From Halomonas socia (GTDB lineage Bacteria; Pseudomonadota; Gammaproteobacteria; Pseudomonadales; Halomonadaceae): a stretch of 64,000 nucleotides of DNA. Position numbers and translations under genes: made by a program. Every line of letters begins with the position of its first letter. The stretch's first letter is position 1. This document shows positions 12,483-64,000 of this stretch, one piece after another. The DNA is taken from positions 1,860,001 through 1,924,000 of the forward strand of contig NZ_CP048812.1 of NCBI RefSeq assembly GCF_010977575.1, read 5' to 3'. The notes under the pieces were generated by a model. It did not search any database. It was given only the letters and a program-made list of their open reading frames with translations, and was not told where the DNA came from.

Positions 12483-13391
12483 TCAGCCAGAGTAGGGGTG
12501 CGTCTCGATCCAGTGGTTGGCGATATCGATGCGGCGGGTGATCCACACATCTTCATGCCCCATGACGTAATCCAGGAAGCGTTGCAGGCCGACGGCCCTG
12601 GCGGGATGGCCGACGAGTCGCATGTGCAGCCCCACCGACATCATCTTGGGGGTGGTCGCTCCCTCGGCGTAGAGCATGTCGAAGGCATCCTTGAGGAAGC
12701 CGAACCACTGGTCGGAGGTACCCATCCAGCCGGCGTACTTGCCGTCGTTGTTGGTCAGCGAGTAGGGCACTACTAGGTGCGGCTCGCCCTCGACGAGTTG
12801 CCAGAAGGGCAGTTCGTCGGCGTAGGAGTCGGAGTCGTAGACGAAGCCGCCCTCCTCGTGCAGCAGTCGGCGGGTGTTGAGGCTGGGCCCGTAGCGGCAA
12901 TACCAGCCCAGGGGACGGGCGCCGACGCTCTTCCCCAGCGAAGTGATCGCCTTGCGGATATGCTCGCGCTCCTCTGCCTCGCTTAGCTCGTAGTGCTTAA
13001 TCCAGCGCCAGCCGTGGCAACAGACGTCGTAGCCGGCCTCGCGGATCTTCTGTGCCGCGCGGGGATTGCGCTCCAGCGCCAGCGCGCAGCCGAAGACCGT
13101 CATGGGCAGGTTGCGCTCCTCGAACAGGCGTACCAGGCGCCAGAAGCCCACCCGGCTGCCGTATTCGAACATGCCTTCGGCGGCCAGGTCCCGGCCGGAG
13201 TCGAACTGGTTGAGGCCATGCGCCTCGGTGAGGCCGGTTTCGGTGTAGCCTTCGCCGTCCTGGAAGGAGGGTTCCGAACCTTCCTCGTAATTCATTACGA
13301 AGTTGAGGGCCAGGCGGGCACCGTTGGGCCATTGCGCGTGGGGCGGTCGGTCGGCGTAGCCGACGAAGTCGCGTTCAGGGGTCCAGCTCAT
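12483..13391 (-). CDS. puuE: Allantoinase of the polysaccharide deacetylase family
   Basis: A 302-residue NodB-fold protein like PuuE, a cofactor-independent allantoinase that opens allantoin to allantoate. The start at 13391 (MSWTPERDFVGYADRPP) is set by GGAGGT. Typical features are NFVMNYEEGSE, GCALALERNP, the CHGWRW motif and the late GLHMRLVGHP. It is the last gene of the operon that begins with the ABC transporter and is preceded by allA, which acts later in the same route, so purine-derived ureide use is the likely role. The NodB family has close relatives acting on other amides, so the exact substrate is inferred. Confidence 0.85.
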   Translation of the reverse strand: MSWTPERDFVGYADRPPHAQWPNGARLALNFVMNYEEGSEPSFQDGEGYTETGLTEAHGLNQFDSGRDLAAEGMFEYGSRVGFWRLVRLFEERNLPMTVFGCALALERNPRAAQKIREAGYDVCCHGWRWIKHYELSEAEEREHIRKAITSLGKSVGARPLGWYCRYGPSLNTRRLLHEEGGFVYDSDSYADELPFWQLVEGEPHLVVPYSLTNNDGKYAGWMGTSDQWFGFLKDAFDMLYAEGATTPKMMSVGLHMRLVGHPARAVGLQRFLDYVMGHEDVWITRRIDIANHWIETHPYSG

Positions 13392-13407
13392 CAAGTACCT
13401 CCATTCT

Positions 13408-13884
13408 TCAGGGAAGGTTGACGGTCACGGGGCTCACGTCGACGAACTCCTCGTCTCCACTGCCGCCTTCGAGCCACATGAAGACGGCGAAGGTGGCGGG
13501 GGCGGCGAACACGGTCACGCCGTGGTGCCAGGTATCGGGCCGGTAGGTCACGCCCTGGTCCCCGCGTGCGATGAATGCCCGCAGCTTGTCCATGTCGGGA
13601 GCACCGGAGGCGTTGTGGGGCGCGACGATGACGATCCAGCTATCCACGTCGACGGGCACGAAGGATTGCGAGGAGAACTCGTGGCGCTCCAGCATTTCCA
13701 CCCGCAGCGGCTGCGCGGGGGAGGGCTCGACGAGGCTGATGGAGAGGCTGGGCTTGGCGCTGTCGCGCAGGTTGCCCAGGGCGTCGCTGTAAAAGTGGCG
13801 GCCGGGCGTCTTGGGCAGCTCCAGCACGTCGCCGAACGGGGCGAAGCGCTCCTGGGTCAGCGGTTGGGCGGTAATGGATGTCAC
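13408..13884 (-). CDS. allA: Ureidoglycolate lyase
   Basis: A 158-residue cupin-fold enzyme that splits ureidoglycolate to glyoxylate and urea. Family motifs visible are APFGDVLE near the start, MLERHEFSSQSFVPV and YRPDTWHHGV. It uses a GTG start at 13884, placed by a strong AAGGAGATC. It lies between the permease gene and puuE, with short gaps, in the same operon. Together with puuE it argues that the transporter imports allantoin, allantoate or a related ureide. Confidence 0.9.
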   Translation of the reverse strand: MTSITAQPLTQERFAPFGDVLELPKTPGRHFYSDALGNLRDSAKPSLSISLVEPSPAQPLRVEMLERHEFSSQSFVPVDVDSWIVIVAPHNASGAPDMDKLRAFIARGDQGVTYRPDTWHHGVTVFAAPATFAVFMWLEGGSGDEEFVDVSPVTVNLP

Positions 13885-13912
13885 GCTTGATCTCCTTGAA
13901 TGAGCACGCCGG

Positions 13913-14758
13913 TCAGTCGTTCAGTCGCCTGGAGAGGCCGACCAGGCGTTCCATGACGAGCATCAGCACGAGCACGGAAACGATGAAGATGCCCGATACC
14001 GCGGCGATGCGTACGTCCAGGGTGGACTCCATCATGCCCCACAGGCGTATCGGCAGCATGTCGCTGCGCGGGCTGGAGAGGAACAGCGAAACGGGCACGT
14101 TGTCGATGGAGGCCATGAACGCCATGAAGCCGCCCGCCACCAGGCCGGGAAAGATGATCGGTAGCGTGATACGCCGGAACGAGTACCAGCGTGTCGCCCC
14201 CAGGCTTGCCGAGCACTCCAGCAGCGTGCCGTCGAGCTGGGCCAGGCTGGCGCTGGTCGTGCGCAGCACGAAGGGCGTGACCATCACGATATGGCCAATG
14301 GTGATCAGCGCCAGGGAGGGGCGGAAGCCGATCATGGTGAAATAGACCAGCGCCGCCAGGCCGAAAGCGATGCCAGGCAGGATGAGCGGCGACATGAACA
14401 GCGAATCCATGACCCGCGCACCGCGCCGTCGCGATCGGGCGATGGCCAGCGATGCCATGCAGCCCAGCACGGCGGCGGCCAGGGCGGACACCAGCGCCAC
14501 GAGCAGGCTGTTGCCGGCTGCCCGGTGAATGGGGGTGGACCTCGCGCTGAACAGTTCCTGATACCAGCGGAGGGAGAGTCCCGTGGGCGGGAAGCGCAGC
14601 GTCTGACCATCGGTCAGCGAGGTGATCAGCACGATGACCACCGGCCCGAGCAGGATCAGCAGCGCCAGGCCGGCCACCGTATAGATGCATGCCGAGTACG
14701 ATGCATCGGCCAGCGACTTGTAGCTGGGCAGGTGCTTGAGAGATGTCTTGTCAGACAT
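13913..14758 (-). CDS. ABC transporter permease, PotC-type
   Basis: A 281-residue inner-membrane permease with six predicted segments and the binding-protein-dependent transport loop near ECSASLGATRWYSFRRITLPI (about residues 180-201), which docks to the ATPase. It resembles the second permease of spermidine/putrescine-type importers. It overlaps the upstream permease by eight bases and precedes allA by 28 bases. A ureide substrate is suggested by context only, so I give no symbol. Confidence 0.9.
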   Translation of the reverse strand: MSDKTSLKHLPSYKSLADASYSACIYTVAGLALLILLGPVVIVLITSLTDGQTLRFPPTGLSLRWYQELFSARSTPIHRAAGNSLLVALVSALAAAVLGCMASLAIARSRRRGARVMDSLFMSPLILPGIAFGLAALVYFTMIGFRPSLALITIGHIVMVTPFVLRTTSASLAQLDGTLLECSASLGATRWYSFRRITLPIIFPGLVAGGFMAFMASIDNVPVSLFLSSPRSDMLPIRLWGMMESTLDVRIAAVSGIFIVSVLVLMLVMERLVGLSRRLND

Positions 14759-15596
14759 ACAGGTGCCTCATGCTGCGGCGTCCCAGCAGCGTGATCAACG
14801 CGATGCACAGGGAAACGGACACCAAGAGGACGATGGCTCCCACCGCGGCCAATGGCCAGTTGTAGAGCACCGACGTCTGCTGCCAGATCATCAACGGCAG
14901 GTAGATGAGGCGGTTGCCGCCGATGATGGAGTGGGAGATGAACGCCGTGGTCGAGCTGGCGAACACCAGGATGCAGCCGGCGATCAGACCCGGGAAGCTC
15001 AGCGGCACGATCACCTTGAACAGTGTGCCCCACCGCGATGCACCGAGGGAGGTGGAGGCATCAATCAGGTTGGGATCGATACGCGCCATGACGCTGATCA
15101 GCGGCAATAGCATCAGCGGCATCTCGATCTGGGTCAGGGAGATGACGAGACCCAGCTCCGTCTGCAGTAGCCGGATCGGCGTGGAGGTCAGCCCCAGCGC
15201 CATGATGGTCTGGTTGATGACACCCTGCTCGCTAAGGATCACGATCCAGGCGAAGGTGCGCACCACCACCGAGAGCAGCACTGGCATCAGGATGATGAAC
15301 AGCAGGATCCTCTTCGTCCGCGGGCCGGCCTGCATGTACACCAAGGCCAGCGGATAGCCGACCAGGATGGTGGCGCATACGGTGTAGACGCCCAGCTTGA
15401 CGGTATCGAACGTCACCTTCCAGTAGAAGGCGTCGCTGACGAAGCGGCGCCAGTTGCCCAGCCCCGGCTGGGTCAGCATCTCGTCGTTGAAGAAGCTGAC
15501 CCCGATGAGCAGCAGCAAGGGAGCCGCGAAAAAGGCGATGTAGAACAGGCTCAGTGGCAACGCCAGTTGCCACTGAGCCGATTTCGGCAGCTGCAT
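14751..15596 (-). CDS. ABC transporter permease, PotB-type
   Basis: A 281-residue permease, first membrane subunit of the same importer, with a hydrophobic N-terminus (LALPLSLFYIAFFAAPLLLL) and the EAA-like loop at ASTSLGASRWGTLFKVIVPL. The ATG at 15596 (MQLPKSAQW) follows GAGGTGG and overlaps the stop of the binding-protein gene by one base (TGATG), so translation is probably coupled. A longer frame upstream has no ribosome binding site. Confidence 0.9.
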   Translation of the reverse strand: MQLPKSAQWQLALPLSLFYIAFFAAPLLLLIGVSFFNDEMLTQPGLGNWRRFVSDAFYWKVTFDTVKLGVYTVCATILVGYPLALVYMQAGPRTKRILLFIILMPVLLSVVVRTFAWIVILSEQGVINQTIMALGLTSTPIRLLQTELGLVISLTQIEMPLMLLPLISVMARIDPNLIDASTSLGASRWGTLFKVIVPLSFPGLIAGCILVFASSTTAFISHSIIGGNRLIYLPLMIWQQTSVLYNWPLAAVGAIVLLVSVSLCIALITLLGRRSMRHLYV

Positions 15597-16627
15597 CAGC
15601 TCGCCACCTCGCGGTTGAACCTCTCGATCCACTCGGCGCGGCGCGGATTGATCAGTGACCAGTCATGCTGAACCATGTTGGCGATTTCGCTCATGTCGCT
15701 CAGCGGCAGATCGGCCAGATCGACCTCGGAGTTGACCGGCGCCATGAAGTAGGGATCCGCCATGAGCTGCTGCTGCACCGGCGTGGAGAGCACGGTGTCG
15801 ATGTACTTGTAGGCGTTGTCGACTTCGTTCGCGCCCCTGGCGATATGCATGGTGGTAAAAAAGGTGATGACACCGCTGGCGGGCCGTACGAACTCGATAT
15901 CGACGCCCCGGGCGCGCAGTGTGCCGACGGTCTGGGTGTTGGTGTACATGATGTCGCACTGGCCCTGCTGGAACAGGCTGGGCATGGAGGCCGGCGTGCC
16001 GATGGTGGCCACGTGGGGCAGCACGCGCTGCAACTCCTCGAAGAACGGCTCGACATTCTCCTCGGAGCCACCGAACGCCTTGGCCATCTCGATGATCGAC
16101 ACGGTGCCGAAGGTGGTCTGGAAACCGGTCAGGCCGAGCCGTGAAACGTAGGGCTCCTCGAACAGGTCGGCCCAGTCCGTCGGCGGCTCGTCGAAACGGT
16201 TAGGATTGTAGGCGATGCCCACGAACTGGGCGGCGACCGGCACGCCATGCTCGTCGGCCATGCCGGGCTCCAGGTGGGCGGAGTTCTCCAGCCGCGAGGC
16301 GTCGAAGGTATCGAACAGGCCGCTCTCGATGGCCGTCACGCGGGGGCCGGGGTCGAGCACGAAGGTATCGAAGGAGGGATTGCCGCGCGCCGCTCGCGCC
16401 TGAGCGATCTGGTCGACCGCGAATAGCGGCTGCATCTGCAGGTCGATGCCATGAGTCTCTCTGAGGGCTTCGGCGACGATGCCGCGATACGCCTCTTCCC
16501 AGGCGCCGGGATAGATGGCGGTGGTCGCGCTGCCCTGCTGGGCGAGCGCCAGCTTGGGGAACATGGCACAGGCGCCCATGACGCCCGCTCCGGCCAGGAG
16601 TTGGCGCCGAGTGATGTGCGGGTTCAT
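15596..16627 (-). CDS. ABC transporter substrate-binding protein with Tat-like signal
   Basis: A 343-residue periplasmic binding protein of the PotD/AEP-like group. The N-terminus carries a twin-arginine-type signal (ITRRQLLAGAGVMG, R7-R8) with cleavage near LALAQ, which suggests export of a folded protein. The mature part starts with a typical binding-protein strand (TTAIYPGAWEEAYRG). It lies between the ATPase and the permeases. The link to puuE and allA suggests a ureide ligand, but nothing in the sequence fixes it. Confidence 0.88.
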   Translation of the reverse strand: MNPHITRRQLLAGAGVMGACAMFPKLALAQQGSATTAIYPGAWEEAYRGIVAEALRETHGIDLQMQPLFAVDQIAQARAARGNPSFDTFVLDPGPRVTAIESGLFDTFDASRLENSAHLEPGMADEHGVPVAAQFVGIAYNPNRFDEPPTDWADLFEEPYVSRLGLTGFQTTFGTVSIIEMAKAFGGSEENVEPFFEELQRVLPHVATIGTPASMPSLFQQGQCDIMYTNTQTVGTLRARGVDIEFVRPASGVITFFTTMHIARGANEVDNAYKYIDTVLSTPVQQQLMADPYFMAPVNSEVDLADLPLSDMSEIANMVQHDWSLINPRRAEWIERFNREVAS

Positions 16628-16651
16628 CTTCTTTCTCCTTGTTTTGTCGGC

Positions 16652-17731
16652 TCAATTGATAGGAAATACCTTGGGGCTTGCTTCCGGCTTCAGTCCACAC
16701 CAATGGGGAATGGCGGCGTCGATGTCCGACTGGTTTTCGCTGCGTGAGGCGGTGATCTTCAGTTCGGCTCCGTCCCGGGTCCAAGCCTGGTGGATCACCG
16801 TCGGACCAATGGGCATGTGCAATCCCAGTTTCACCGGCCAACTGGCGTCGCCGGGTTGGGGGGATAGGGACAACTGCTCTGGCCGGACGGAGACCGTCAC
16901 GTGCTGGCCGGCTGCAAGGCCGTTCGTCGCGGGCAGTTCCAACCGGACGCCGGCGTCCAGTTCGACGTCGAGGCGTTCAGGCGAGGCGGCGACAACCTTG
17001 CCCTCGATCAGGTTCGTCGTACCGATGAAGTTGTTGACGAACAGGGTCTGCGGGTCGTCGTAGATCGCGGTGGGAGAACCCACCTGCTCGATGCGGCCCT
17101 GGTTCATCACTGCGATCCTGTCGGCGACGCTCATGGCCTCCTCCTGGTCGTGGGTGACCAGTATCGCGGTCAGGCCGAGTTCGCGCTGAAGGCGCTTGAT
17201 CTCGATCTGCATGTCGAGCCGCAGATTCTTGTCGAGGGCGCTGAAGGGTTCATCGAGCAACAGAATGTGGGGCCCGGTGGCGATGGCGCGGGCCAGGGCG
17301 ACGCGCTGCTGCTGTCCACCGGAAAGCTGCTTCGGATAGCGGTCGGCGATATGCGGGAGCTGCACGATATCGAGGCATTCGCGCACGCGCTCCTTCACCT
17401 TGGCACGCGACTCGCCCCTGGCGTCGAGGCCGTAGGCGACATTCTGGGCGACGGTCAGATGCGGGAATAGCGCATAGTTCTGGAAGACGATGCCGATGTT
17501 TCTCTGATTGGACCGCAGGTTGTCGATGGCATGCCCGCCGACCATGACGCTGCCTTGGCTCTGCGAGACGAATCCGGCGACGATCCTTAGCAGGGTGGTC
17601 TTGCCGCAGCCCGAAGGTCCCAGCAGGGCAATGATTTCCCCGGCTTCGACGGAGAGCGAGACATCGTCGACTGCCAGAAAGTCGCCATAGCGGTGAGTGA
17701 CGGATTCAATGTCCAACGTGTATCCAGTCAT
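16652..17731 (-). CDS. ABC transporter ATPase, PotA-type
   Basis: A 359-residue ATPase, first gene of the transporter-allA-puuE operon. Walker A is GPSGCGKTT, the signature LSGGQQQR, Walker B LLLDEPFSALD, and the switch His lies in LVTHDQEEA. A C-terminal TOBE-type regulatory domain spans about residues 240-350. The ATG at 17731 (MTGYTLDIES) has a modest GGATAAA upstream. An in-frame extension of 14 residues is lysine-rich and unlikely. A 325-bp AT-rich leader region precedes it. Confidence 0.92.
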   Translation of the reverse strand: MTGYTLDIESVTHRYGDFLAVDDVSLSVEAGEIIALLGPSGCGKTTLLRIVAGFVSQSQGSVMVGGHAIDNLRSNQRNIGIVFQNYALFPHLTVAQNVAYGLDARGESRAKVKERVRECLDIVQLPHIADRYPKQLSGGQQQRVALARAIATGPHILLLDEPFSALDKNLRLDMQIEIKRLQRELGLTAILVTHDQEEAMSVADRIAVMNQGRIEQVGSPTAIYDDPQTLFVNNFIGTTNLIEGKVVAASPERLDVELDAGVRLELPATNGLAAGQHVTVSVRPEQLSLSPQPGDASWPVKLGLHMPIGPTVIHQAWTRDGAELKITASRSENQSDIDAAIPHWCGLKPEASPKVFPIN

Positions 17732-18056
17732 GTGGTTGTTTTTATCCTTAATGAGTATTTGTTTGCATGCCAATATTTAACATGCAATAATCGTGCCAGA
17801 TTTGTCGAAAGCATACAGGCGTGATAAGAAAACCCCTTTTCTCTCAGTTGTTTCTTATGGGGAAAGATTTTTCTTCATATGTGATACATGTTGGAAATGC
17901 ATGTCAGAAAAATACGTTTTGCCTGAGGCGGGTGCATGTTTATGTCGATGGCAGCGGGATGGGAACCGTGATGGTGCGGAAGTGCAAGGTATACTTGAAC
18001 GTGCGGAGGAGATGGGCGCCCCGCTCCATGGCGGACCGGGGCTCATGCGCGGGAGC
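17732..18056. promoter_or_regulatory. Leader region of the ABC-transporter/allA/puuE operon
   Basis: About 325 bases with no gene I can support. They are clearly AT-richer than the surroundings (for example 17750-17920), as expected of a promoter or of transferred DNA. The region holds the TTGCATG-N11-CATGCAA inverted repeat, and ACATG-N9-CATGT at 17886-17904. No regulator gene is next to the operon. Confidence 0.6.
17763..17787. promoter_or_regulatory. Inverted repeat TTGCATG-N11-CATGCAA
   Basis: A perfect 7-bp inverted repeat with an 11-bp AT-rich spacer, centred about 44 bases upstream of the potA-like start. Arm spacing (18 bp centre to centre) fits a dimeric regulator on nearly successive turns. 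The binding protein is unknown. Confidence 0.5.
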
Positions 18057-54737: not shown

Positions 54738-55418
54738 TCAGCCGTAAAGGGTTTCCCAGTGGATATCCAGCTTTGGCGCAGCGTCGAGCATGAGTTCGGA
54801 TTCAATATGTTCGAGATGATGCAGCATGAGCCTGATGGCAGCCGCTTCATCGTGATTTTCTATGGCATCGACAATTTGGCTATGTTCGTCTTCGGGGCAT
54901 GCTGGGGTCTGCGGTGCGTCATAAAGCGCGATGATCAGGCACGTTAGGGGGCACAGCTCTGCCATCAGCTTCTCGATGAAGGCGTTGCCTGCCAGCGCTG
55001 CCAAGAGCATATGGAATTGACCGGATAACCGAATGATGCGGCGGCGATCTCCCGCCGCCCGCGCTTGTGCCTCTTCTTCGAGGTGCTGGTGTAGCCGGGC
55101 GATATCCTGTTCGCAGGCCCTGGCGATGACGTTACGAACGATTTCAGGCTCCACCAGCCGGCGGGTGGCGAACAGGTCTCTGGCCTCCTCGGCGGAAGGC
55201 CGCTTGACGAAGGCGCCGCGGTTGGGGTGCAGCGTCACCAGTCCCTCTTTGGCCAGCAGGGTAAGCGCTTGACGAATCTTGGTTCGGCTCACGCCGAAGG
55301 CGCCTGCCAGTTTCTCCTCCACCAGCTTGATGCCCGGCGGCAGCCGATGCTCCATCACCGCGTCGGTGATGCGCTCGGCGATCTGCTCGATGGCCAGTTT
55401 GGTGGTGGAGGCTTCCAT
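54738..55418 (-). CDS. GntR-family (FCD domain) regulator of the downstream catabolic operon
   Basis: A 226-residue FadR-type regulator: winged helix (about residues 10-72, with GAFGVSRTKIRQALTLLAKEGLV) and a helical FCD ligand domain with likely metal-binding His/Asp residues (RLSGQFHMLLA, EDEHSQIVDAI, LMLHHLEHIE). It is divergent from the TRAP-catabolic operon, which it probably represses until the substrate binds. The start at 55418 has GGGAA upstream; ATG at 55430 is also possible. Two matched palindromes lie just upstream. Confidence 0.88.
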   Translation of the reverse strand: MEASTTKLAIEQIAERITDAVMEHRLPPGIKLVEEKLAGAFGVSRTKIRQALTLLAKEGLVTLHPNRGAFVKRPSAEEARDLFATRRLVEPEIVRNVIARACEQDIARLHQHLEEEAQARAAGDRRRIIRLSGQFHMLLAALAGNAFIEKLMAELCPLTCLIIALYDAPQTPACPEDEHSQIVDAIENHDEAAAIRLMLHHLEHIESELMLDAAPKLDIHWETLYG

Positions 55419-55515
55419 TGCAATTCCCATTTGTCAGTGATGTCCCGATTCAGTATGCCGCAGCACAGCGCAGATCAGAAGCCGCAGGAAGCGCGCAGAT
55501 GTCAGTACTTCGGCT

Positions 55516-55530
55516 GCACCTTAAGGGTGC
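55516..55530. promoter_or_regulatory. Putative GntR operator 1 (GCAC-N7-GTGC)
   Basis: GCACCTTAAGGGTGC is a perfect 5-5-5 inverted repeat between the GntR gene and dctP. Confidence 0.6.
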
Positions 55531-55545
55531 CAACAATACATGTTT

Positions 55546-55560
55546 GCACAATTAATGTGC
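55546..55560. promoter_or_regulatory. Putative GntR operator 2 (GCAC-N7-GTGC)
   Basis: GCACAATTAATGTGC has the same 5-5-5 architecture as operator 1 and starts exactly 30 bases later. The AT-rich stretch 55570-55655 that follows, with no gene, is a likely dctP promoter. Confidence 0.6.
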
Positions 55561-55778
55561 GTGATCTATCTTAAAAAATTGTACTCAATATATTAGACAT
55601 AATTTTAAACAATAATAAAAACAAAATTTTTAACATTCAAAATCATAGAGTTGCAGATCACGGCGGTGGCGCGCCAAGAACGGCGAGTCCTGGCATGGCA
55701 TAGGGCTTGCTCAGACTTAGTGAGGTGGCCGAGCGCTTGGCTCGGCTCTGCCATAACAATGATCCGGAGGGTTTCCAG

Positions 55779-56777
55779 ATGTCCAAGTCCCATACTGTGA
55801 AAATGGCTACCTTGCTGACGGCGGGGATGCTGCTGTCGTCCTCGGTGCTGGCAACTGAGCGCTTGCGTGTTGCCGGCAACTTCCCCACCGACCACTCCGT
55901 GTCGAGGGCCATGGAGGTCTTCAAGGAGCAGGTCGAGAGCGAATCAAACGGTGATATCTCTGTCGAGCTGTTCCCGGCGATGCAGTTGGGCGGGGCCACA
56001 GAGAATGTCGATCAGGTGCGTTCAGGCAGCATTTTTGCCGTCTTTACCTCGATCGCCTATTTCACTCGCTCGGTTCCCGAGTACGAAGCGGTCAGCCTGC
56101 CGTTCCTGTTCGATAGTCGTGATCAGGCCTTTGCGGTAATGGATGGCCCGGTCGGCGAGCACCTCGATGAAAAGATGGCCGAGCTGGGCTTCGTCAACCT
56201 TGGCTACGGCGAGCTTGGTTTCCGGCATGTCACCAATAATCTCCGCCCGATTACCTCCGTCGAGGATTTCGAGGGGATGCGCATTCGCCTGCAGCCTAAT
56301 GAAGTTCACCTGCAGACCTTCCGCGCACTGGGTGCCAACCCAGTGTCGATGGACGTTTCTGAACTCTACTCCGCTCTCCAGCAGGGAGTGCTCGATGGTC
56401 AGGAGAACCCCTACAACATCATCGCCAGCCGTCGCTTCAATGAGGTTCAGGAGTATCTCTCCGACAGTGGCCATTTCTACGACTTCATCAATGCCGTCGC
56501 CAACCAGCGCAGCTATGAGCGCCTCTCGGAAGAGCATCGCGTCATCGTCGATGAGGCAATGCAAGCGGCCATGGAGTGGCAGCGTGAGGCAGCGGCAGAG
56601 GAGGAGGAGTCCTGGCGCGAGCAACTGATCGAGGCTGGTATGGAGTTCACCCCGATCTCTGCGGACCTGCGCGCCGAACTGCGTGAAGCGACCATGGAAG
56701 TCGCGGAGAGCCTCGCGGACCGCGTTGATCCTGAGTTCCTTGAACTAGTAATCCAGGAAGCCGAAGCGGCGCTGTGA
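55779..56777 (+). CDS. TRAP transporter substrate-binding protein DctP
   Basis: A 332-residue periplasmic binding protein, signal peptide to about residue 26 (SVLA-TE). The mature part begins RLRVAGNFPTDHSVSRAM and contains GMRIRLQPNEVHLQTFRALGANPV with the carboxylate-binding Arg, and DGQENPYNIIAS. The ATG at 55779 follows GGAGG. TRAP binding proteins mostly take organic acids; here, with hydantoinase-type enzymes downstream, the ligand may be an N-carbamoyl or ureide acid (inference). Confidence 0.9.
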   Translation: MSKSHTVKMATLLTAGMLLSSSVLATERLRVAGNFPTDHSVSRAMEVFKEQVESESNGDISVELFPAMQLGGATENVDQVRSGSIFAVFTSIAYFTRSVPEYEAVSLPFLFDSRDQAFAVMDGPVGEHLDEKMAELGFVNLGYGELGFRHVTNNLRPITSVEDFEGMRIRLQPNEVHLQTFRALGANPVSMDVSELYSALQQGVLDGQENPYNIIASRRFNEVQEYLSDSGHFYDFINAVANQRSYERLSEEHRVIVDEAMQAAMEWQREAAAEEEESWREQLIEAGMEFTPISADLRAELREATMEVAESLADRVDPEFLELVIQEAEAAL

Positions 56778-56785
56778 GGTCAGGC

Positions 56786-57346
56786 ATGGCGGACACTTCT
56801 GCACCACTGCACGACAATGCTAAGGCGCGGGGCCCCAAGCCCCCTCCACGTTCCAGTGCTTTCAGGCGTGCCAAGCGCATCGTGGAGATGCTCGATGCCA
56901 CTACCTATTGGGGCATTGTGGCAGTGATGGGCCTGATGGCGACCATTGTCTCCCTGCAGGTGTTCTGGCGCTACGTTTTGGGGTCGTCGATCGACTCCGC
57001 CGACGAGCTGTCGCGGCTGTTCTTTGTCTGGGCCATCTTCCTGGCCATTCCGCATGGTGTGAAGCATGGGGTGCATGTCGGCATCGACTTGTTCGTCATG
57101 CTGATGCCTGAATGGTTGAAGGAGCTGCTTTTCCGGTTGATGGCAGGCGTTTCGACGACCTTGATGCTGATGGTGATGCTAGGCGCCTGGGTGGCGACCC
57201 TCGATCGCTGGCCTGAACTGATGCCGACGCTACCGATCACCTCCGCCATCTACTATATCGCTGTGCTCATTTGCGGTGCCCACGCCTTCCTGCATCTGGC
57301 CCTGCTGGCCTGGGGCGGGTCGCGAACCTGGGAGGAGCTGACATGA
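56786..57346 (+). CDS. TRAP transporter small permease DctQ
   Basis: A 186-residue protein with an N-terminal cytoplasmic stretch of about 45 residues and four TM segments. Typical DctQ features are VFWRYVLGSSIDSADELSRLFFVW and HGVKHGVHVGID. It follows dctP by eight bases and overlaps dctM by four (ATGA). Confidence 0.88.
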   Translation: MADTSAPLHDNAKARGPKPPPRSSAFRRAKRIVEMLDATTYWGIVAVMGLMATIVSLQVFWRYVLGSSIDSADELSRLFFVWAIFLAIPHGVKHGVHVGIDLFVMLMPEWLKELLFRLMAGVSTTLMLMVMLGAWVATLDRWPELMPTLPITSAIYYIAVLICGAHAFLHLALLAWGGSRTWEELT

Positions 57347-58623
57347 CCTGGCTGGCGATTGGGTTGTTTCTGGGCTTGGCCGTACTCGGCATGCCGTTGG
57401 CCTTTGCCCTCGGCTTTGGGTCGCTGGCGGGCCTGTGGATGCTCGATTTCGAGCTGGTGGTGATGCCGCAGCGAATGCTGCACGCCGTCAACAGCTTCCC
57501 GCTGATGGCCATTCCGCTGTTCATGCTCGCCGGTGAGCTGATGGTGAGAGCCGGGATCATGGACCGACTTATCTCCTTTGCCAACAGCCTGGTGGGCAGG
57601 ATGCACGGCGGACTGGCCCATGTGACGATTACCTCAGGGACCATCTTCGCGTCGGTCAGCGGGGCAGCGGTGGCCAGTGCCAGCGCTATGGGCAGCACTC
57701 TGGTGCCATCACTGCGCAAATATTATCCCGACGCCTATTCGGGGGCGGTGATTGCCTCGGCGGCCAATCTGGGCCCGGTGATCCCGCCCAGCAATGCGAT
57801 GATTGTCTATGCCCTGATGGCCGGCTCTTCGGTGTCGGTGGGCGGACTATTCATGGCCGGCATTCTGCCCGGCATCCTGCTGGCGATAGGCTTCATGGTC
57901 ATTGCCAGCTGGATATCCTGGAAGCGCGGATATCCCTTGACCGGCGAGCGCTTCAACCTCTGCAACGTCGCCCGACAGGCGCGGCGTGCCATCGTCATCA
58001 TCCTGATGCCGGTGATCGTGGTAGGCGGCATCGTAGGCGGGATCTTTACCGCGACCGAGGGGGCGGCCATCGCGGTGGTCTACTCGGCGTTCATCGGATT
58101 CGTTGTCACGCGTCGTCTGCGTATCGCCGACCTGCCGGGCTGTCTCTACCGCGCCGCGGTGACCTCGGCGATGGTTGGTGCGCTGATCGCGTTTGCGTCG
58201 GTGCTGACCTTCATTTTCACCATCGAGATGGTGCCGATGATGCTGTCATCGTTCATCCAGTCGCTGACCGCGGATCCCATGATCTTCATCATGCTGACCA
58301 TGGCGCTGCTGGTGGTGATCGGCATGCTGATCGAGTCCAACGCCGCCTACATCATGCTGGTGCCGCTATTTGCGCCCGTCGCCGTGCTGTACGGCATCGA
58401 CCCGCTCTATTTCGGCTTTCTGTTCATGTACAACCTGGTGGTCGGCATGATGACGCCGCCGGTTGGCGTGCTCTACTTCGTCATGAGCGGCATCACCAAG
58501 GTGCCGATGATGACGCTGGTCAGAGAGTCACTGCCGTTCGTTGCCTTCCAGTTCGCGATCCTCGGGCTTTGCATCGCCTTTCCGCAAATCGTCACCGCGC
58601 TGCCTCGTGCACTCGGTTACTGA
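57343..58623 (+). CDS. TRAP transporter large permease DctM
   Basis: A 426-residue membrane protein with 11-12 TM segments and the DctM signatures SVSGAAVASASAMGSTLVPSL, NLGPVIPPSNAMIVYALMAG, and FTATEGAAIAVVYS. It completes the Na+-driven TRAP importer, apt for a halophile. It is followed by the amidohydrolase after 17 bases with a GAGGAGC ribosome binding site. Confidence 0.93.
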   Translation: MTWLAIGLFLGLAVLGMPLAFALGFGSLAGLWMLDFELVVMPQRMLHAVNSFPLMAIPLFMLAGELMVRAGIMDRLISFANSLVGRMHGGLAHVTITSGTIFASVSGAAVASASAMGSTLVPSLRKYYPDAYSGAVIASAANLGPVIPPSNAMIVYALMAGSSVSVGGLFMAGILPGILLAIGFMVIASWISWKRGYPLTGERFNLCNVARQARRAIVIILMPVIVVGGIVGGIFTATEGAAIAVVYSAFIGFVVTRRLRIADLPGCLYRAAVTSAMVGALIAFASVLTFIFTIEMVPMMLSSFIQSLTADPMIFIMLTMALLVVIGMLIESNAAYIMLVPLFAPVAVLYGIDPLYFGFLFMYNLVVGMMTPPVGVLYFVMSGITKVPMMTLVRESLPFVAFQFAILGLCIAFPQIVTALPRALGY

Positions 58624-58640
58624 ATCCTGAGGAGCAGGCC

Positions 58641-60014
58641 ATGCCGACACTCTCTCCGTTCGACGCCGAGCACCCCGCCGACCTGGTGATTTACGGCGGG
58701 CGCTTACTGACCGTTGACCCGCTGCTCGGTGAGGTCGCCTGCGGTCGCCTGGTGATCCATCAGGGTCGCCTGGTTGAGGTGGGGCCCCACGCTGCCGGTG
58801 AGCCGCTCCCACCCGCCCGCCGTACCCTGGATATGCATGGTCGTGTGATCATTCCAGGCTTCGTCAATATGCATACCCATACCATTCTGAGCATGGTGCG
58901 TGGCGTGGCCGAGGACATGGGCTTCGCCCCGGCTTACACCCCGGGCGTACCCCACGGTCACGAGGTCAGCGAAGAAGAGGCGGTGGCGCTGGCACGACTG
59001 GGCGCTGCCGAGGCGCTGCTGTTCGGCTCCACACTGATCAACGATAGCTATGTGCACGCCGACCTGACGCTGCCGGCGATGGGCGAGCTTGGTATGCGGG
59101 TGATCACCTGTGGCCGCATCCATGATGTGGACTTCAGTCGCGTCCATGAGGGGCTATGGGAACATCGCAGCGCGATTGGCGAGAAGACGCTGGGCGAGGC
59201 GGTGGCCTTGCATGAGCGCTGGCAGGGCAAGATGGACGGCCGCCTGGGCGTCGAGCTGGCCGCCCATGCGCCGGATACCTGCTCGCGGGATCTGCTGATG
59301 AAGGTGGCCGAGACCCGCGATGCCCTGGGCATCCAGGTCAATGGCCACCTCTCCCAGAGCCGCAAGGAGAATCGCCGCGTCGAGGAGCGCGACGGCATGA
59401 GCCCGAGCGAGCTGCTCGAGGATGTCGGGCTGCTTGGTCCGCGCTTCACCGCCGCTCACTGCATGTACGTCAGCGACAGCGACATCGCCCGTATCGGTCG
59501 CGTGGGCACCAATATCGCCCATGTCCCGCGCGGCAACGCCACCGGCGGCCGCATCGCCCCCACCACCCGACTGCGTCAAGCCGGCGCCAATCTGACTCTG
59601 GCCACCGACAACATGCATGCCGATATGGTCGAGGTCATGCGCTGGGCGCTGATCATGGGGCGCGTCCAGGAGGGCGAGGTGAACGATACCTGGCAGCCTC
59701 ACCATGTGCTGGAGATGGCCACTCTCAACGGCGCCAGGGCGCTTGGCCTCGAGCATGAGCTGGGCTCGCTGACGCCCGGTAAGCGCGCCGACCTGGCGGT
59801 CCTCGATTTCCGACGGCCGCACCTGGTGCCGCTGATCAATGCGCTGGGCAATCTGGTGCACACCGCCCAGGGGCGCGATGTGGAGATGGTGGTCTGCAAT
59901 GGACAGGTGGTGGTCGAGGGAGGCGAGCTGTGTCTGGCGGATACGTCGGCGCTGCTGGCCGATGCCCAGCATGCGGCCGAGGCGCTCTGGTCCCGCGCCC
60001 GGGCCCAGGTCTGA
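58641..60014 (+). CDS. Amidohydrolase (cytosine deaminase/chlorohydrolase group)
   Basis: A 457-residue amidohydrolase-fold enzyme. Metal-site residues occur in order: HxH in FVNMHTHTILS, H in LAAHAPDTCS, H in VNGHLSQSRKENR, and D in TLATDNMHAD. The single-metal pattern without a carboxylated lysine is that of deaminases and chlorohydrolases acting on purines, pyrimidines, triazines or guanidines. It could deaminate the imported ring compound before the hydantoinase step. The start at 58641 follows GAGGAGCAGG. Confidence 0.85.
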   Translation: MPTLSPFDAEHPADLVIYGGRLLTVDPLLGEVACGRLVIHQGRLVEVGPHAAGEPLPPARRTLDMHGRVIIPGFVNMHTHTILSMVRGVAEDMGFAPAYTPGVPHGHEVSEEEAVALARLGAAEALLFGSTLINDSYVHADLTLPAMGELGMRVITCGRIHDVDFSRVHEGLWEHRSAIGEKTLGEAVALHERWQGKMDGRLGVELAAHAPDTCSRDLLMKVAETRDALGIQVNGHLSQSRKENRRVEERDGMSPSELLEDVGLLGPRFTAAHCMYVSDSDIARIGRVGTNIAHVPRGNATGGRIAPTTRLRQAGANLTLATDNMHADMVEVMRWALIMGRVQEGEVNDTWQPHHVLEMATLNGARALGLEHELGSLTPGKRADLAVLDFRRPHLVPLINALGNLVHTAQGRDVEMVVCNGQVVVEGGELCLADTSALLADAQHAAEALWSRARAQV

Positions 60015-60041
60015 CCCTGCTAACGGCTCAAGGGAGCGCCC

Positions 60042-60794
60042 ATGAAACTGCTGATCGTCAATCCGAACATCTCACATAGCGTCACCGACCTGATCGAGGC
60101 CGAGGCGCGCCGTACGGCCAGTCCGGGCACTCAACTGACCATGCGCACGGCTGCGCTGGGCGTGGCCTATATCGAGACCCGCGCCGAGGCTGCTATCGGC
60201 GCCTATGCGACGCTCAACGAGCTGGCCGACCACTTTTCCGGACACGATGCCGCCGTGGTGGCCGCCTTTGGCGACCCGGGACTTGAAGCGGCCCGCGAGA
60301 TGCTGCCGATACCGGTGGTGGGACTGACCGAGAGTGCGCTGATGAGCGCCGCTATGCTCGGCGGCAAGATCGGCATCGTGGCCATCTCGCGGCGTATTCG
60401 GGCTTGGTACGCCGAGACCGTTGATCGCTATGGCATGACCTCGCGTCTGGCCGGTATCCGCTGTCTGGACGAGCCGCTGGCCAATATCGGCAGCGTGCAG
60501 CAGGACAAGGGCGAGCAACTGGTGGCGCTGTGTGAGGCGGCGATTCGCGACGATGGCGCGGATGTGTTGATCATCGCCGGCGCGCCTCTGGCTGGTCTGG
60601 CGCGCAGCGTGGCACAGCGCATACCGGTGCCGGTGGTGGATGGCGTGAGCTGTGCGGTGCAGCAGGCGGAGCTGCTGGCCCGCCTCGGCCCCGCCAATGC
60701 GACGGCGGGCAGCTATGCCGCGCCGCCGGCGAAAGGCGTCGTGGGCTTATCGCCGGCACTGGCGCAACTGATTGGCCGGGAGGATCAGCAATGA
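60042..60794 (+). CDS. Asp/Glu/hydantoin racemase-family protein lacking both catalytic Cys
   Basis: A 250-residue protein with the hydantoin racemase fold: MKLLIVNPNISHSVTD, the FGDPGL loop, and VPVVDGVSCAV. The two cysteines that act as acid/base in hydantoin and allantoin racemases are replaced. The first position reads VAAFGDPGL (A75), the second IIAGAPLAG (G180). Racemisation by the usual two-base mechanism is therefore unlikely; another reaction or a binding role is possible. It overlaps the DUF3830 gene by four bases. Confidence 0.82.
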   Translation: MKLLIVNPNISHSVTDLIEAEARRTASPGTQLTMRTAALGVAYIETRAEAAIGAYATLNELADHFSGHDAAVVAAFGDPGLEAAREMLPIPVVGLTESALMSAAMLGGKIGIVAISRRIRAWYAETVDRYGMTSRLAGIRCLDEPLANIGSVQQDKGEQLVALCEAAIRDDGADVLIIAGAPLAGLARSVAQRIPVPVVDGVSCAVQQAELLARLGPANATAGSYAAPPAKGVVGLSPALAQLIGREDQQ

Positions 60795-61249
60795 GCCGTC
60801 CTGAGCCGGCAGAGAGTGTCGTACGCCTGCGATTGGTCTCCCACGACCTCGAGTTCGTGGCCGAGACCCGCCCCGATGCGCCGCACAGCGTGGCAGCCTT
60901 GCTGACGCTCCTGCCCTGGCAGACGCAGCTGGTGCACGTGCGCTGGAGCGGTGAAGGGGTGTGGATACCCCTGGATGAGAGGGACTTCGCCCTGCCCTGG
61001 GAGAACCCCATCCGCTATCCCGCTCCCGGCGACGTGCTGTTCTACCCCGGTGGATACAGCGAGACCGAGATCCTGCTGGCCTACGGCGCGTGCAGCTTTG
61101 CCAGCAAGCTGGGGCCGATCGCTGGTAATCACTTTATGAGTCTGGTCGAAGGGCTCGAGCAGCTCCCGGAACTGGGACGACGCTGCCTATGGCAAGGTGC
61201 CCAGCCGTTGACCATCACCACCCACCCGACCAAAGGAGGCTCCCAATGA
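60791..61249 (+). CDS. DUF3830 family protein
   Basis: A 152-residue small protein with DUF3830 features: PHSVAALLTLLPWQTQLVHVRWSG, NPIRYPAPGDVLFYPGGYSETEIL, YGACSFASKLGP and GNHF. The fold is probably cyclophilin-like. Its function is unknown. It starts within the racemase-like gene's stop (ATGA) and its own stop overlaps the next start in the same way, so its product is made in step with the enzymes and is probably part of the pathway. Confidence 0.85.
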   Translation: MSRPEPAESVVRLRLVSHDLEFVAETRPDAPHSVAALLTLLPWQTQLVHVRWSGEGVWIPLDERDFALPWENPIRYPAPGDVLFYPGGYSETEILLAYGACSFASKLGPIAGNHFMSLVEGLEQLPELGRRCLWQGAQPLTITTHPTKGGSQ

Positions 61250-61986
61250 CCGTGAACCGCAGTCGATTCGGCGTACTCACGCCCTCGTCCAATACGGCGC
61301 TCGAGCCGCTCACGTCGGCCATGGTGGCCAAGATCCCCGGGGTCAGCGCGCACTTCTCGCGCTTTGCCGTGACTGAAATCGCGCTCAGCGCGCGGGCGCT
61401 GGGCCAGTTCGATGATCGCCATGTGCTGGCGGCAGCTCGCCTGTTGGCTGACGCTCGGGTCGACGTGATCGGCTGGAGCGGTACCTCGGCCGGCTGGCTG
61501 GGGTTCGACCACGACGAGACCCTGTGCCAACGCATTAGCGAAGAGACCGGCATCCCAGCGACGACCTCGATGTTGGCGCTGAATGAAATTCTCGCCGAAT
61601 ACGGGTTTCGCGAGTTTGGTCTGGTGACGCCCTACACCGACGACGTGCAGCAGCGAATTCTCGACAACTACCGTAGTGAAGGATTTGCGGTGGTCGCCGA
61701 GGACCATCTGGGCATCAGCGAAAACTTCGCTTATGCCGAAGTCAGCGCGGAAACGCTCACCGCTCAGGTGCGGCGTGTGGCCCAGGCCGGCGCGCCGGCC
61801 ATCGTGGTGGCTTGCACCAATCTCTGCTCGGCCGACCTGGTATCACAGTGGGAGGTGGAGCTGGGGGTGCCGGTGCTGGATACCACGGCCACCGTGGTGT
61901 GGAAGATGCTGCGCATGACCGGGCATGGCGAGGCGTCAGTGAGTGGTTGGGGACAACTGATGGAAGGAGTGATGGCGCATGGCTGA
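61246..61986 (+). CDS. Maleate isomerase/arylmalonate decarboxylase-like protein
   Basis: A 246-residue Asp/Glu racemase-superfamily member starting MTVNRSRFGVLTPSSNTALEP. One catalytic position is changed: where maleate isomerase has C-T-S it reads G79-T80-S81 (WSGTSAG). The second Cys is kept (C190, VVACTNLC). A single Cys in the second half is the pattern of arylmalonate decarboxylase, so decarboxylation or a one-base isomerisation is more likely than racemisation (inference). It overlaps neighbours by four and eight bases. Confidence 0.8.
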   Translation: MTVNRSRFGVLTPSSNTALEPLTSAMVAKIPGVSAHFSRFAVTEIALSARALGQFDDRHVLAAARLLADARVDVIGWSGTSAGWLGFDHDETLCQRISEETGIPATTSMLALNEILAEYGFREFGLVTPYTDDVQQRILDNYRSEGFAVVAEDHLGISENFAYAEVSAETLTAQVRRVAQAGAPAIVVACTNLCSADLVSQWEVELGVPVLDTTATVVWKMLRMTGHGEASVSGWGQLMEGVMAHG

Positions 61987-63424
61987 ATTCGATCTGGTAA
62001 TTCGGCGCGCACGCTGCGCCACCGCCGCCGATGTGTTCGAGGCCGATATCGGCATCCGGGACGGCGTGATCACGGCGCTGGGTAGCGGCCTTGCCGAGGG
62101 ACTCGAGGAGATCGATGCCGCCGGCCGCTGGGTACTGCCGGGCGGTGTCGACGGGCACTGCCACCTGGACCAGCCCACCTCTGACGGCTCGAAGATGGCC
62201 GACGACTTTCTCAGCGGTACCCGCTCGGCGGCCTGCGGGGGCACCACCACGGTCTTTCCGTTTGCCTGCCAGATGAAAGGCCAGAGCCTGCGTGCCGCCG
62301 TCGACGACTATCACCAGCGTGCCGAGGGCAAGGCGTGTATCGACTACGCCTTCCATCTGATCGTGACCGACGCGACCCCCGAGGTGCTGGCCAATGAGCT
62401 TCCAGCACTGATCCGCGAAGGTTACACCTCGTTCAAGATCTACATGACCTACGACGACCTGAAACTGTCGGACCGCGAAATCATCGACGTGCTGGCGGTG
62501 GCCCGTGAGCATGGCGCCATGGTCATGGTGCACGCCGAGAATGCCGACTGTATCGCCTGGCTCACCGAGCGTCTGCTCGCCCATGGCCATACCGCCCCCC
62601 GATACCATGCCGAGGCACGGCCGATGTTGGTAGAGCGTGAGGCCACCCATCGCGCCATTGCCTATGCCGAGTTGGTCGACGTGCCAATCCTGATCGTCCA
62701 CGTCTCAGGGCGTGAGGCGATAGAGCAACTGCGCTGGGCGCACAGTCACGGCCTGCGTGTTTATGCCGAGACATGTCCTCAGTATCTGTTCCTGACCGCT
62801 GACGACCTGGGCATTGATGACGATGATCATCACGGTGCCAAGTGCATCTGCAGTCCGCCGCCTCGCGACAAGGCCAATCAACAAGTGGTATGGGATGGCC
62901 TGGAGAGTGGCGCCTTCCAGATTTTCTCCTCGGATCATGCCCCGTTCACCTTCGCCGGCCCACAAGGCAAGTTCGCGGCCGGCAGTGATGCTAGTTTTGA
63001 ACGCATCCCCAATGGCATCCCTGGGCTCGAAACGCGTCTTGCCCTGCTGTTCAGCCACGGGGTGGAAACGGGCCGCTTGACCATGCAGCAGTTCGTGGCA
63101 CTCACTGCCACCAATGTGGCGCGCATGTATGGCCTCTACCCGCGCAAGGGCTCGATCGCCGTCGGCGCCGATGCCGACCTGGTGATCTGGGAGACCGGCC
63201 TGGATCGGCGTATTCGCAACAGCGACCTGCATCACGGCGTGGACTACACCCCCTACGAGGGCATACCGGTGTCGGCTTGGCCGGAGTTGACACTGTCACG
63301 TGGCGAGGTGGTGTGGCGCGACGGCGACTATCTGGGCGTCGCCGGCCGCGGCCAGTTCCTCCCCTGCGCCTTGCCTGCGCCGGCTCGGCCCAAGCCGCGG
63401 CCGCCGGGAGGTGGTGCGTGGTAA
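61979..63424 (+). CDS. Dihydropyrimidinase/hydantoinase-family amidohydrolase
   Basis: A 481-residue cyclic amidase. Binuclear metal residues are all present: HxH in GGVDGHCHLDQP, the carboxylatable Lys in YTSFKIYMTYDD, H in VMVHAENAD, H in ILIVHVSGREA, and D in FSSDHAPF. It should open a hydantoin, dihydropyrimidine or similar cyclic ureide to an N-carbamoyl acid. No carbamoylase is visible in the window; it may lie further right. The C-terminal 25 residues are Pro/Arg-rich. Confidence 0.9.
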   Translation: MAEFDLVIRRARCATAADVFEADIGIRDGVITALGSGLAEGLEEIDAAGRWVLPGGVDGHCHLDQPTSDGSKMADDFLSGTRSAACGGTTTVFPFACQMKGQSLRAAVDDYHQRAEGKACIDYAFHLIVTDATPEVLANELPALIREGYTSFKIYMTYDDLKLSDREIIDVLAVAREHGAMVMVHAENADCIAWLTERLLAHGHTAPRYHAEARPMLVEREATHRAIAYAELVDVPILIVHVSGREAIEQLRWAHSHGLRVYAETCPQYLFLTADDLGIDDDDHHGAKCICSPPPRDKANQQVVWDGLESGAFQIFSSDHAPFTFAGPQGKFAAGSDASFERIPNGIPGLETRLALLFSHGVETGRLTMQQFVALTATNVARMYGLYPRKGSIAVGADADLVIWETGLDRRIRNSDLHHGVDYTPYEGIPVSAWPELTLSRGEVVWRDGDYLGVAGRGQFLPCALPAPARPKPRPPGGGAW

Positions 63425-63479
63425 GCCGTTCACACATGCCCGAACGCCTCGAGGCGCTGATAGCGAGCGGGGTGTCCCT

Positions 63480-63953
63480 ATGAACTCACGCACATGGCCT
63501 GGGGGGCGCCTGATCGAGTCGCTGCTGGCACTCGCGGTGATCACGGTGGGGATGATGTTTCTGCGTATCGTGCACAGCACGCCGCCGCCCTTTGGCGACC
63601 CGGGCGATATCGGGTCGGCGGCGTTCTTCCCCGGCTTGATCGCACTGCTGGTGACCGGTCTGGGCGTGGTGCTGCTACTGTCCGCCTGGCGGCCAATGTC
63701 CTCGGTGGCGTTCGAGTCTGGACACACCGCCCGGGCGCTAGTGGCCTATGCGGTGATGGTGGCCATGGCCGTATCGATTCGGTTCCTGGGGATCTGGCTG
63801 GTCACCATGCTGGCCGTGCCGCTGCTGGCACTATGCTTCGGCGAACGCCGCTGGTATGTGCTGCTGGCGCTGGCGGTAGTGCCGCCGACGCTGGTGATCC
63901 ACCTCTTCGAGGGTGTCATGGGGGTCTACTTCCCCAGGGGGGTGCTGCTTTGA
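63480..63953 (+). CDS. Tripartite tricarboxylate transporter small subunit TctB
   Basis: A 157-residue membrane protein with four hydrophobic segments and a TctB-type stretch FGDPGDIGSAAFFPGLIALLV. The ATG at 63480 follows GCGGGGTG. With the following TctA start it forms a second, different carboxylate importer in the same operon as the TRAP system. A TctC binding protein is not seen before it and may lie to the right. Confidence 0.82.
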   Translation: MNSRTWPGGRLIESLLALAVITVGMMFLRIVHSTPPPFGDPGDIGSAAFFPGLIALLVTGLGVVLLLSAWRPMSSVAFESGHTARALVAYAVMVAMAVSIRFLGIWLVTMLAVPLLALCFGERRWYVLLALAVVPPTLVIHLFEGVMGVYFPRGVLL

Positions 63954-64000
63954 TCGACCTGGCGGTGCTGCAGCAGGGGCTTGCCATGCTGGCCAGTCCG
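63950..64000 (+). CDS. TctA-like large permease, 5' end only
   Basis: A TTG at 63950 overlaps the TctB stop by four bases (TTGA) and starts a frame open to the window edge (17 codons, IDLAVLQQGLAMLASP). This looks like the N-terminus of TctA, the large subunit that normally follows TctB. Too short to be sure. Confidence 0.5.
   Translation, partial: MIDLAVLQQGLAMLASP

Follow-up and report, generated by a model that had tools for sequence, protein, structure and literature searches.

The classical hydantoinase process relies on a hyu racemase, a D-hydantoinase and a carbamoylase, and the purine ureide pathway on PuuE, AllE, AllA, Gcl, Hyi and GlxR. In the excerpts of PMC4996985 that describe arylmalonate decarboxylase (AMDase) clusters, an AMDase-type protein with Gly at catalytic site 1 and Cys at site 2 stands beside tripartite ATP-independent periplasmic (TRAP) or tripartite tricarboxylate transporter (TTT) importers. 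Here we describe a gene cassette of the salt-loving bacterium Halomonas socia that shares parts with each of these systems. It lies in the window, i.e. the whole 64,000-nucleotide stretch analysed (G000:C1:1860001-1924000; G- and L-numbers label genomes and loci, G000 being the window's own genome, a single contig of 4.75 Mb). Open reading frames (ORFs) and Pfam give the gene order DctPQM (a TRAP importer), AhA (a TRZ/ATZ-type amidohydrolase), HyuRac (an allantoin/hydantoin-racemase-like protein), DUF3830, AMD (an AMDase/maleate-isomerase-like protein), HydA (a D-hydantoinase) and TctB, with a divergent GntR gene.

As in the classical process, a D-hydantoinase adjoins a member of the allantoin/hydantoin racemase family, but HyuRac is Cys-less, no carbamoylase was seen, and AMD, AhA, DUF3830 and the TRAP/Tct importers are extra. 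With the purine ureide pathway the link is through relatives, in which PuuE lies under the palindrome of the cassette and ureidoglycolate/glyoxylate genes adjoin some cores; the hydrolase, however, is a D-hydantoinase and not AllB, and neither AMD nor a Cys-less HyuRac has a known place there. AMD shares the Gly/Cys arrangement of the AMDases but lacks their oxyanion Gly189 and hydrophobic-pocket residues, and the cassette is hydantoinase-linked. AhA has the His/Asp motifs and the TDN of the AtzA/TRZ-type amidohydrolases, whereas their HxxE glutamate is Gln both in AhA and in its relative in G927 (43% identity). We conclude that the cassette is probably a new variant of cyclic-ureide catabolism; it is real, conserved and co-regulated within the family, and at least three of its proteins carry misleading family names.

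Of 275 genomes of the family, taken to be Halomonadaceae, 17 have a match to AhA at E ≤ 1e-120. They are distributed over 4 of 24 genera, and DctM, AhA, HyuRac, AMD and HydA are clustered in all 17 cassettes. The core gene order thus occurs in 16 genomes besides the window's own, three of them (G464, G455 and G456) represented by short contigs that cut the ends of the cassette, and because of this recurrence the arrangement cannot be attributed to chance. The first-pass annotation had proposed a possible cyclic-ureide or N-heterocycle degradation operon and had named lack of conservation outside this genome as the outcome that would speak against it; the proposal, as a cyclic-ureide (hydantoin-type) catabolic operon, is borne out on this point. 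Other genes are less constant. DUF3830 belongs to 11 of 17 cassettes; it is lacking in five genomes from one supported clade in the tree of racemase-like proteins and in G417. AhB, a second amidohydrolase, and the Tct genes are likewise present in 11; they are absent from G557, G572 and G417, and their absence from the three short contigs is uninformative. The indispensable part of the cassette is the importer, AhA, HyuRac, AMD and HydA, DUF3830 and Tct/AhB being dispensable. Six of the 17 cassettes carry an FAA-hydrolase-like gene after HydA (one was profile-scored, at 32.7 against a cut-off of 23.9 bits); the FAA-type gene of G557 is only a fragment, ahead of a transposase-like ORF. Here and below, flanking ORFs without a profile score were named by eye or by BLAST to named sequences.

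Part of the core extends beyond the family. A search for HyuRac in 398 genomes of the phylum gave matches at E ≤ 1e-25 in 71 and below 1e-60 in 12, the window's own genome included. Around the 11 other genes, which were picked by HyuRac alone, AMD was found in 8, HydA in 9 and a match to an amidase of the amidase signature (AS) family in 7, so that the HyuRac, AMD and HydA trio recurs in other Proteobacteria. The importers at these loci, as judged by eye, vary between TRAP, ATP-binding cassette (ABC) and major facilitator superfamily (MFS) types, and an AhA homologue is present at one of the 11 (G927). Two pairs of loci (L014/L117 and L015/L118) come from the same genomes and each was counted once.

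The racemase-like protein does not have the active site that its name implies. Ala75 and Gly180 of HyuRac align with Cys79 and Cys184 of KpAllR, the two Cys that characterize hydantoin and allantoin racemases. In a survey of 30 loci from the phylum search together with the family cassettes, neither catalytic Cys is present in any of the 28 HyuRac loci (own, 16 of the family and 11 others), while the other 18 loci examined comprise 12 with Cys/Cys, 4 with Cys/Gly, 1 with Ile/Gly and 1 with Gly/Cys. The Cys-less HyuRac rows lie on one side of a branch of the tree whose support (92/78) is not strong. In OpaE, a member of the racemase family, both Cys are essential and their replacement cost nearly all activity, according to the excerpted text of PMC12661438; a literature search found no paper on OpaE in catabolism. 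With both Cys gone, racemisation by this protein, as the first-pass annotation had it, is not upheld. A structure model of HyuRac, built from 3 sequences, reached a predicted local distance difference test (pLDDT) score of 59.9 and was not used. The loci L136, L139, L143 and L146 form a racemase-like clade in which the first catalytic site is Cys and the second Gly, and in G927 a second short racemase-like protein adjoining HyuRac (L164:8557-9225, minus strand) is also without both Cys.

AMD retains Gly74, Thr75, Ser76, Tyr126 and Cys188 of AMDase, seen as GTS, the Tyr of TPY/SPY and the Cys of CTN, in 28 of 28 rows (26 genomes). Three named activities were tried for it and rejected. Maleate isomerase requires two catalytic Cys, and AMD has one, with Gly at site 1. 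The EutA and AMDase models match AMD at 86.3 bits each, against NCBIfam cut-offs of 318 and 225, respectively. Moreover, of the residues described for AMDase in PMC4996985, Gly189, Val156, Met159 and Pro15 are replaced by Thr, Asn, Tyr/Phe and Ser, respectively (the Pro15 position was placed by eye, outside the alignment).

The best solved match to AhA is atrazine chlorohydrolase (4v1x, 7e-49). The HxxE Glu, which follows the third metal His, has a known role in TRZ/ATZ deaminases; five aligned solved chains of this group (TRZ/ATZ, COG0402 deaminase; two of them alike) have it, whereas AhA reads HLSQ in 17 of 17 family genomes and HLAQ in the G927 relative. With this Gln for Glu exchange, the simple deaminase of the first-pass annotation is not upheld. 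AhB has the glutamate (HVQET) and keeps the usual motifs. For HydA no such departure is apparent. It exceeds the NCBIfam cut-offs of PRK13404 (788.9 against 647) and of the D-hydantoinase model TIGR02033 (541.2 against 393.25), and remains below that of allantoinase AllB (243.3 against 357.85). The metal site of D-hydantoinases consists of HxH, a carboxylated Lys, two His and an Asp, and the HydA motifs GHCHLD, SFKIYMTY, VHAEN, VHVSG and SSDHAP are kept in 17 of 17 family cassettes. An AhB-like amidohydrolase of G949 was also noted, situated ~6 kb from a cyclase-family gene (L166:3003-3704) that is 60% identical to the co-regulated cyclase described below.

A palindrome, ATTGTANNCAAT, occurs between GntR and DctP in all 16 orthologous intergenic regions, that of the own genome and 15 others. 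It matches once in the window against 0.01 expected; the whole own genome contains 2 matches (the second inside an ORF) against 1 for a backwards control pattern, and the weight of the motif therefore rests on its conservation. In 1.39 Mb of fetched loci (L104 upwards, some overlapping) 23 matches were counted: 15 belong to cassettes, 1 is a duplicate of the own site, 5 are located before a cyclase gene, 1 is inside an ORF and 1, in L168, is unexplained. The five stand ~135–166 bp upstream of a cyclase-TRAP2-amidase unit, in 5 of 5 family genomes that have this unit (G557, G572, G575, G590 and G417). A PuuE-like match follows the unit in 4 of the 5 (all except G572); that of G575, the sole one of the four scored, reaches 436.2 against an allantoinase PuuE cut-off of 424.6, while that of G557 lies at the limit of two fetched stretches, close to a transposase-like ORF, and may not be intact. 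The site in L168 (position 7692, genome G410) is flanked by a HAD-like gene and another GntR-like gene, a possible case of cross-regulation.

The surroundings of several cores include genes of ureide and glyoxylate metabolism. The G499 core adjoins AllE, Gcl, Hyi and GlxR (above curated equivalog cut-offs), AllA (above its subfamily cut-off) and a glycerate-kinase-like gene; UraD-, UraH- and PuuE-like genes lie at a greater distance. Matches from BLAST alone point to AllE-like, BhcA-like and UraH-like genes in G711, a weak UraH-like gene in each of G953, G667 and G781, and a PuuE-like gene in G927. The BhcA-like aminotransferase of G996 is related only (428.1 against a cut-off of 650). A search for the allantoicase family carries no evidential weight, since it gave no match in any control genome. 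On the minus strand of the window, at 12483-17773, PuuE-like and ureidoglycolate-lyase-like genes end an operon with an apparent spermidine/putrescine-type ABC transporter; orthologues of the PuuE-like (94%) and AllA-like (83%) genes of the own genome adjoin the cassette in G557. As to the ligand, the Arg of the DctP motif GMRIR corresponds to an Arg in each of the 4 solved TRAP receptors in the alignment, and a conserved Arg in domain 2 of TRAP receptors binds the ligand carboxylate, as stated in the excerpts of PMC5812351. This Arg, taken together with the D-hydantoinase, suggests a substrate with an acid group on a hydantoin or dihydropyrimidine ring.

The reading we tentatively prefer is a mobile catabolic regulon whose substrate would be a carboxylated cyclic ureide akin to hydantoin or allantoin and which would feed glyoxylate metabolism. 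GntR would repress from ATTGTANNCAAT, and the TRAP system would import an acidic ring compound. Ring opening by D-hydantoinase, joined by PuuE in the fuller versions, would yield a ureido acid. The diacid thus formed may be the substrate of the single-Cys AMD, for which the role of a cofactor-free decarboxylase or protonase is the simplest assumption; AhB, the AS amidase, the cyclase-family hydrolase or the FAA-type enzyme would finish the breakdown where present, and the carbon would enter as glyoxylate. For the Cys-less HyuRac, the Gln-type AhA and DUF3830, family names do not predict the chemistry. From the earlier scheme of import, deamination, ring opening and processing by two racemase-superfamily proteins, cyclic-ureide catabolism is retained, and the mechanism has to be revised for AhA, HyuRac and AMD. 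Similarly, the view that the parts match no standard pathway stands, since no pathway with this gene set was found in a literature search in which subscription journals were largely uncovered, except with regard to allantoin, as some relatives have co-regulated or adjacent allantoin/glyoxylate genes.

A number of observations weigh against the preferred reading. Evidence at the sequence level presents a conserved gene set, a common palindrome, active-site states and neighbourhood links; the substrate is a putative one, which we infer from these. The allantoin/glyoxylate gene links are co-locations without a computed chance expectation. AMD fails several AMDase criteria, and decarboxylation is weakly supported. 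Among the 11 loci outside the family, AMD and HydA are both missing near the racemase-like gene of G717, AMD occurs without HydA in G789, and HydA occurs without AMD in G946 and G927. ATTGTANNCAAT has no match in the core loci and fetched flanks of other families (L154-L164, L192-L205 and L207), and joint control is therefore shown for this family only. A PuuE-like protein of G557 scores 397.1, below the cut-off, and an AllA-like protein of that genome has no NCBIfam match at 1e-30. In the own genome there are no TRAP2/amidase genes within 53 kb of the cassette; the nearest PuuE-like/AllA-like pair (12483-13884) lies 41 kb upstream without ATTGTANNCAAT, the PuuE-like protein scores 391.9 against 424.6, and the adjoining AllA-like protein is only 37% identical to AllA of G499. 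UraD and UraH are encoded elsewhere in that genome, so ordinary urate breakdown need not use the cassette. Lastly, no carbamoylase was seen among the ORFs up to ~17 kb past AhB (minimum lengths of 140 and 220 amino acids), by inspection only, with no family search of individual ORFs and the rest of the genome not searched.

Other explanations can be offered for the same genes. That the cassette imports and degrades allantoin or allantoate itself, as a version of the usual allantoin (purine) pathway, is unlikely: PuuE under ATTGTANNCAAT in relatives and AllE-AllA-Gcl-Hyi-GlxR beside the G499 core would fit, as would the purine TRAP transporter and allantoin racemase of marine purine catabolism (2025; excerpts of PMC11698098), but HydA falls short of the AllB model and clearly exceeds those for D-hydantoinase, allantoin offers the TRAP Arg no carboxylate, and the own genome has UraD/UraH and PuuE-like/AllA-like genes separately. 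Somewhat less probable still are two independent functions side by side, with TRAP-AhA-HyuRac-AMD-HydA as one pathway and TctBAC-AhB as unrelated carboxylate scavenging. The absence of TctBAC-AhB from G557, G572 and G417, whose flanks are covered, agrees with this, and so does pRL10 of R. johnstonii, which has AhB, AMD and DUF3830 but, over 24 kb, no match to HyuRac or HydA; yet the company of AhB and AMD on pRL10, and of the AhB-like gene and the cyclase in G949, ties AhB to the same pathway.

We consider classical hydantoin utilisation, in which racemase and D-hydantoinase yield N-carbamoyl-D-amino acids for a carbamoylase encoded elsewhere in the genome, to be improbable. HydA does exceed the cut-offs of the D-hydantoinase models, HyuRac is nearest to allantoin/hydantoin racemases among known structures, and G717 has a carbon-nitrogen hydrolase near its racemase-like gene; against this, all 28 loci lack both Cys, essential in OpaE, and no carbamoylase was seen on inspection of the right flank, the only part of the genome looked at for one. 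An ectoine- or arylmalonate-type pathway around the EutA/AMDase-like protein deserves very little credence: the models for both do match AMD, and TRAP and TTT genes often adjoin AMDases in the excerpts of PMC4996985, but the scores are far below the cut-offs, Val156, Met159 and Gly189 are replaced, and the main text of that paper is without 'dihydropyrimidinase' or 'amidohydrolase' and contains 'hydantoin' only within 'hydantoin racemase'. A more specific proposal, and a long shot, is an undescribed route that degrades an oxidised-purine-like carboxy-hydantoin (e.g. 5-hydroxyhydantoin-5-carboxylate), whereby ring opening would give a ureidomalonate-type diacid and AMD would decarboxylate it to ureidoglycolate, the Cys-less racemase fold being a new lyase or hydrolase and DUF3830 a cyclophilin-fold enzyme. 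A literature search found no bacterial pathway for guanidinohydantoin catabolism.

DUF3830 is a loose companion of ureide hydrolases, outside the core of this system. The protein scores 97.3 against a Pfam gathering cut-off of 26 bits. Foldseek matched its model (pLDDT 85.7; folding alignment of the window plus 32 of 80 loci, with 7 of 40 rows omitted, one of them with an internal stop) to 3kop (1e-8) and to the Pictet-Spenglerases KslB (3e-7) and McbB; by sequence the match to 3kop is weak (E 0.12). The cyclophilin-like fold is common to DUF3830, 3KOP (function unknown) and KslB/McbB, but identity is ~20%, and DUF3830 itself is without known function; no paper on it was found in a literature search. 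Co-occurrence of DUF3830 with the other families, a check suggested by the first-pass annotation, was analysed at the best 80 of 580 relatives (at least 596 pattern matches), a sample that is not random. Outside the own genome these have a HydA homologue in 28 cases, a HyuRac homologue in 4 and AMD in 2, both Halomonas, and with its absence from 6 of 17 cassettes DUF3830 was rejected as a marker of the gene set. Its closest named relatives, among the matches listed, are from Halomonas. Of 8 annotated plasmid regions with DUF3830, 6 (L006, L007, L009, L011, L012 and L013) have hydA, allB, acetamidase, allE or urate genes, L008 has different amidohydrolases and L010 lacks any such gene. In L009, L006 and L013, DUF3830 is near hydA, FAD-dependent oxidoreductase and DapA-family genes, which resembles a D-amino-acid or hydroxyproline-type pathway.

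The features of the locus are collected in the table. Divergent GntR and the nine plus-strand genes in the window are where the first-pass annotation had placed them, and the tight operon that it described is confirmed by junctions of -4, -4, 17, 27, -4, -4, -8 and 55 bp. Pfam matches above cut-off are FCD/GntR, DctP, DctQ, DctM, Amidohydro_1, Asp_Glu_race, DUF3830, Amdase, Amidohydro_1 and TctB. The first-pass annotation had also advised looking to the right of the window for a carbamoylase and TctC; TctC was found, after TctA, and the carbamoylase was not seen by ORF inspection. Downstream of AhB are a small membrane protein and an IS630-type transposase (L002:16599-17741; the transposase was named by eye). 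The flanks of the cassette differ among genomes, which together with the nearby transposase suggests mobility.

Features of the cassette and its surroundings (window numbering; AhB, TctC and most of TctA lie past the window)
Feature	Position	Strand	Basis
GntR/FCD-family regulator, divergent	54738..55430	-	Pfam FCD 79.4 bits, GntR 63.1 bits
Putative operator ATTGTACTCAAT, GntR-DctP intergenic region	55578..55589	+	ATTGTANNCAAT conserved in orthologous regions
DctP, TRAP solute-binding protein, carboxylate-binding Arg (GMRIR) retained	55779..56777	+	Pfam 281.5 bits
DctQ, TRAP small permease	56774..57346	+	Pfam 83.1 bits
DctM, TRAP large permease	57343..58623	+	Pfam 330.3 bits
AhA, TRZ/ATZ-type amidohydrolase; HLSQ replaces HxxE, TDN replaces TDG	58641..60014	+	Pfam Amidohydro_1, alignment
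HyuRac, allantoin/hydantoin-racemase-like, both catalytic Cys replaced (Ala75, Gly180)	60042..60794	+	Alignment, tree
DUF3830, cyclophilin-like fold	60791..61249	+	Pfam 97.3 bits; model pLDDT 85.7; Foldseek
AMD, AMDase/maleate-isomerase-like, single catalytic-site Cys (site 1 GTS, site 2 CTN)	61246..61986	+	Pfam, alignment
HydA, D-hydantoinase/dihydropyrimidinase, intact metal-site motifs	61979..63424	+	NCBIfam, alignment
TctB	63480..63953	+	Pfam 44.9 bits
TctA start	63950..64000, running on to 65488 outside window	+	
TctC, past window	65500-66468		
AhB, second Amidohydro_1 protein with HVQET and TDG, past window	66533-68053		

The cassette joins four groups with no or doubtful chemistry, namely DUF3830, a Cys-less clade of the Asp/Glu racemase superfamily, a single-Cys AMDase-like clade and a Gln-type TRZ/ATZ hydrolase, to one ring hydrolase type and one putative operator. 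The functions of these four groups thereby become directly testable with few substrates, and caution is advisable over the automatic names racemase, decarboxylase and deaminase.

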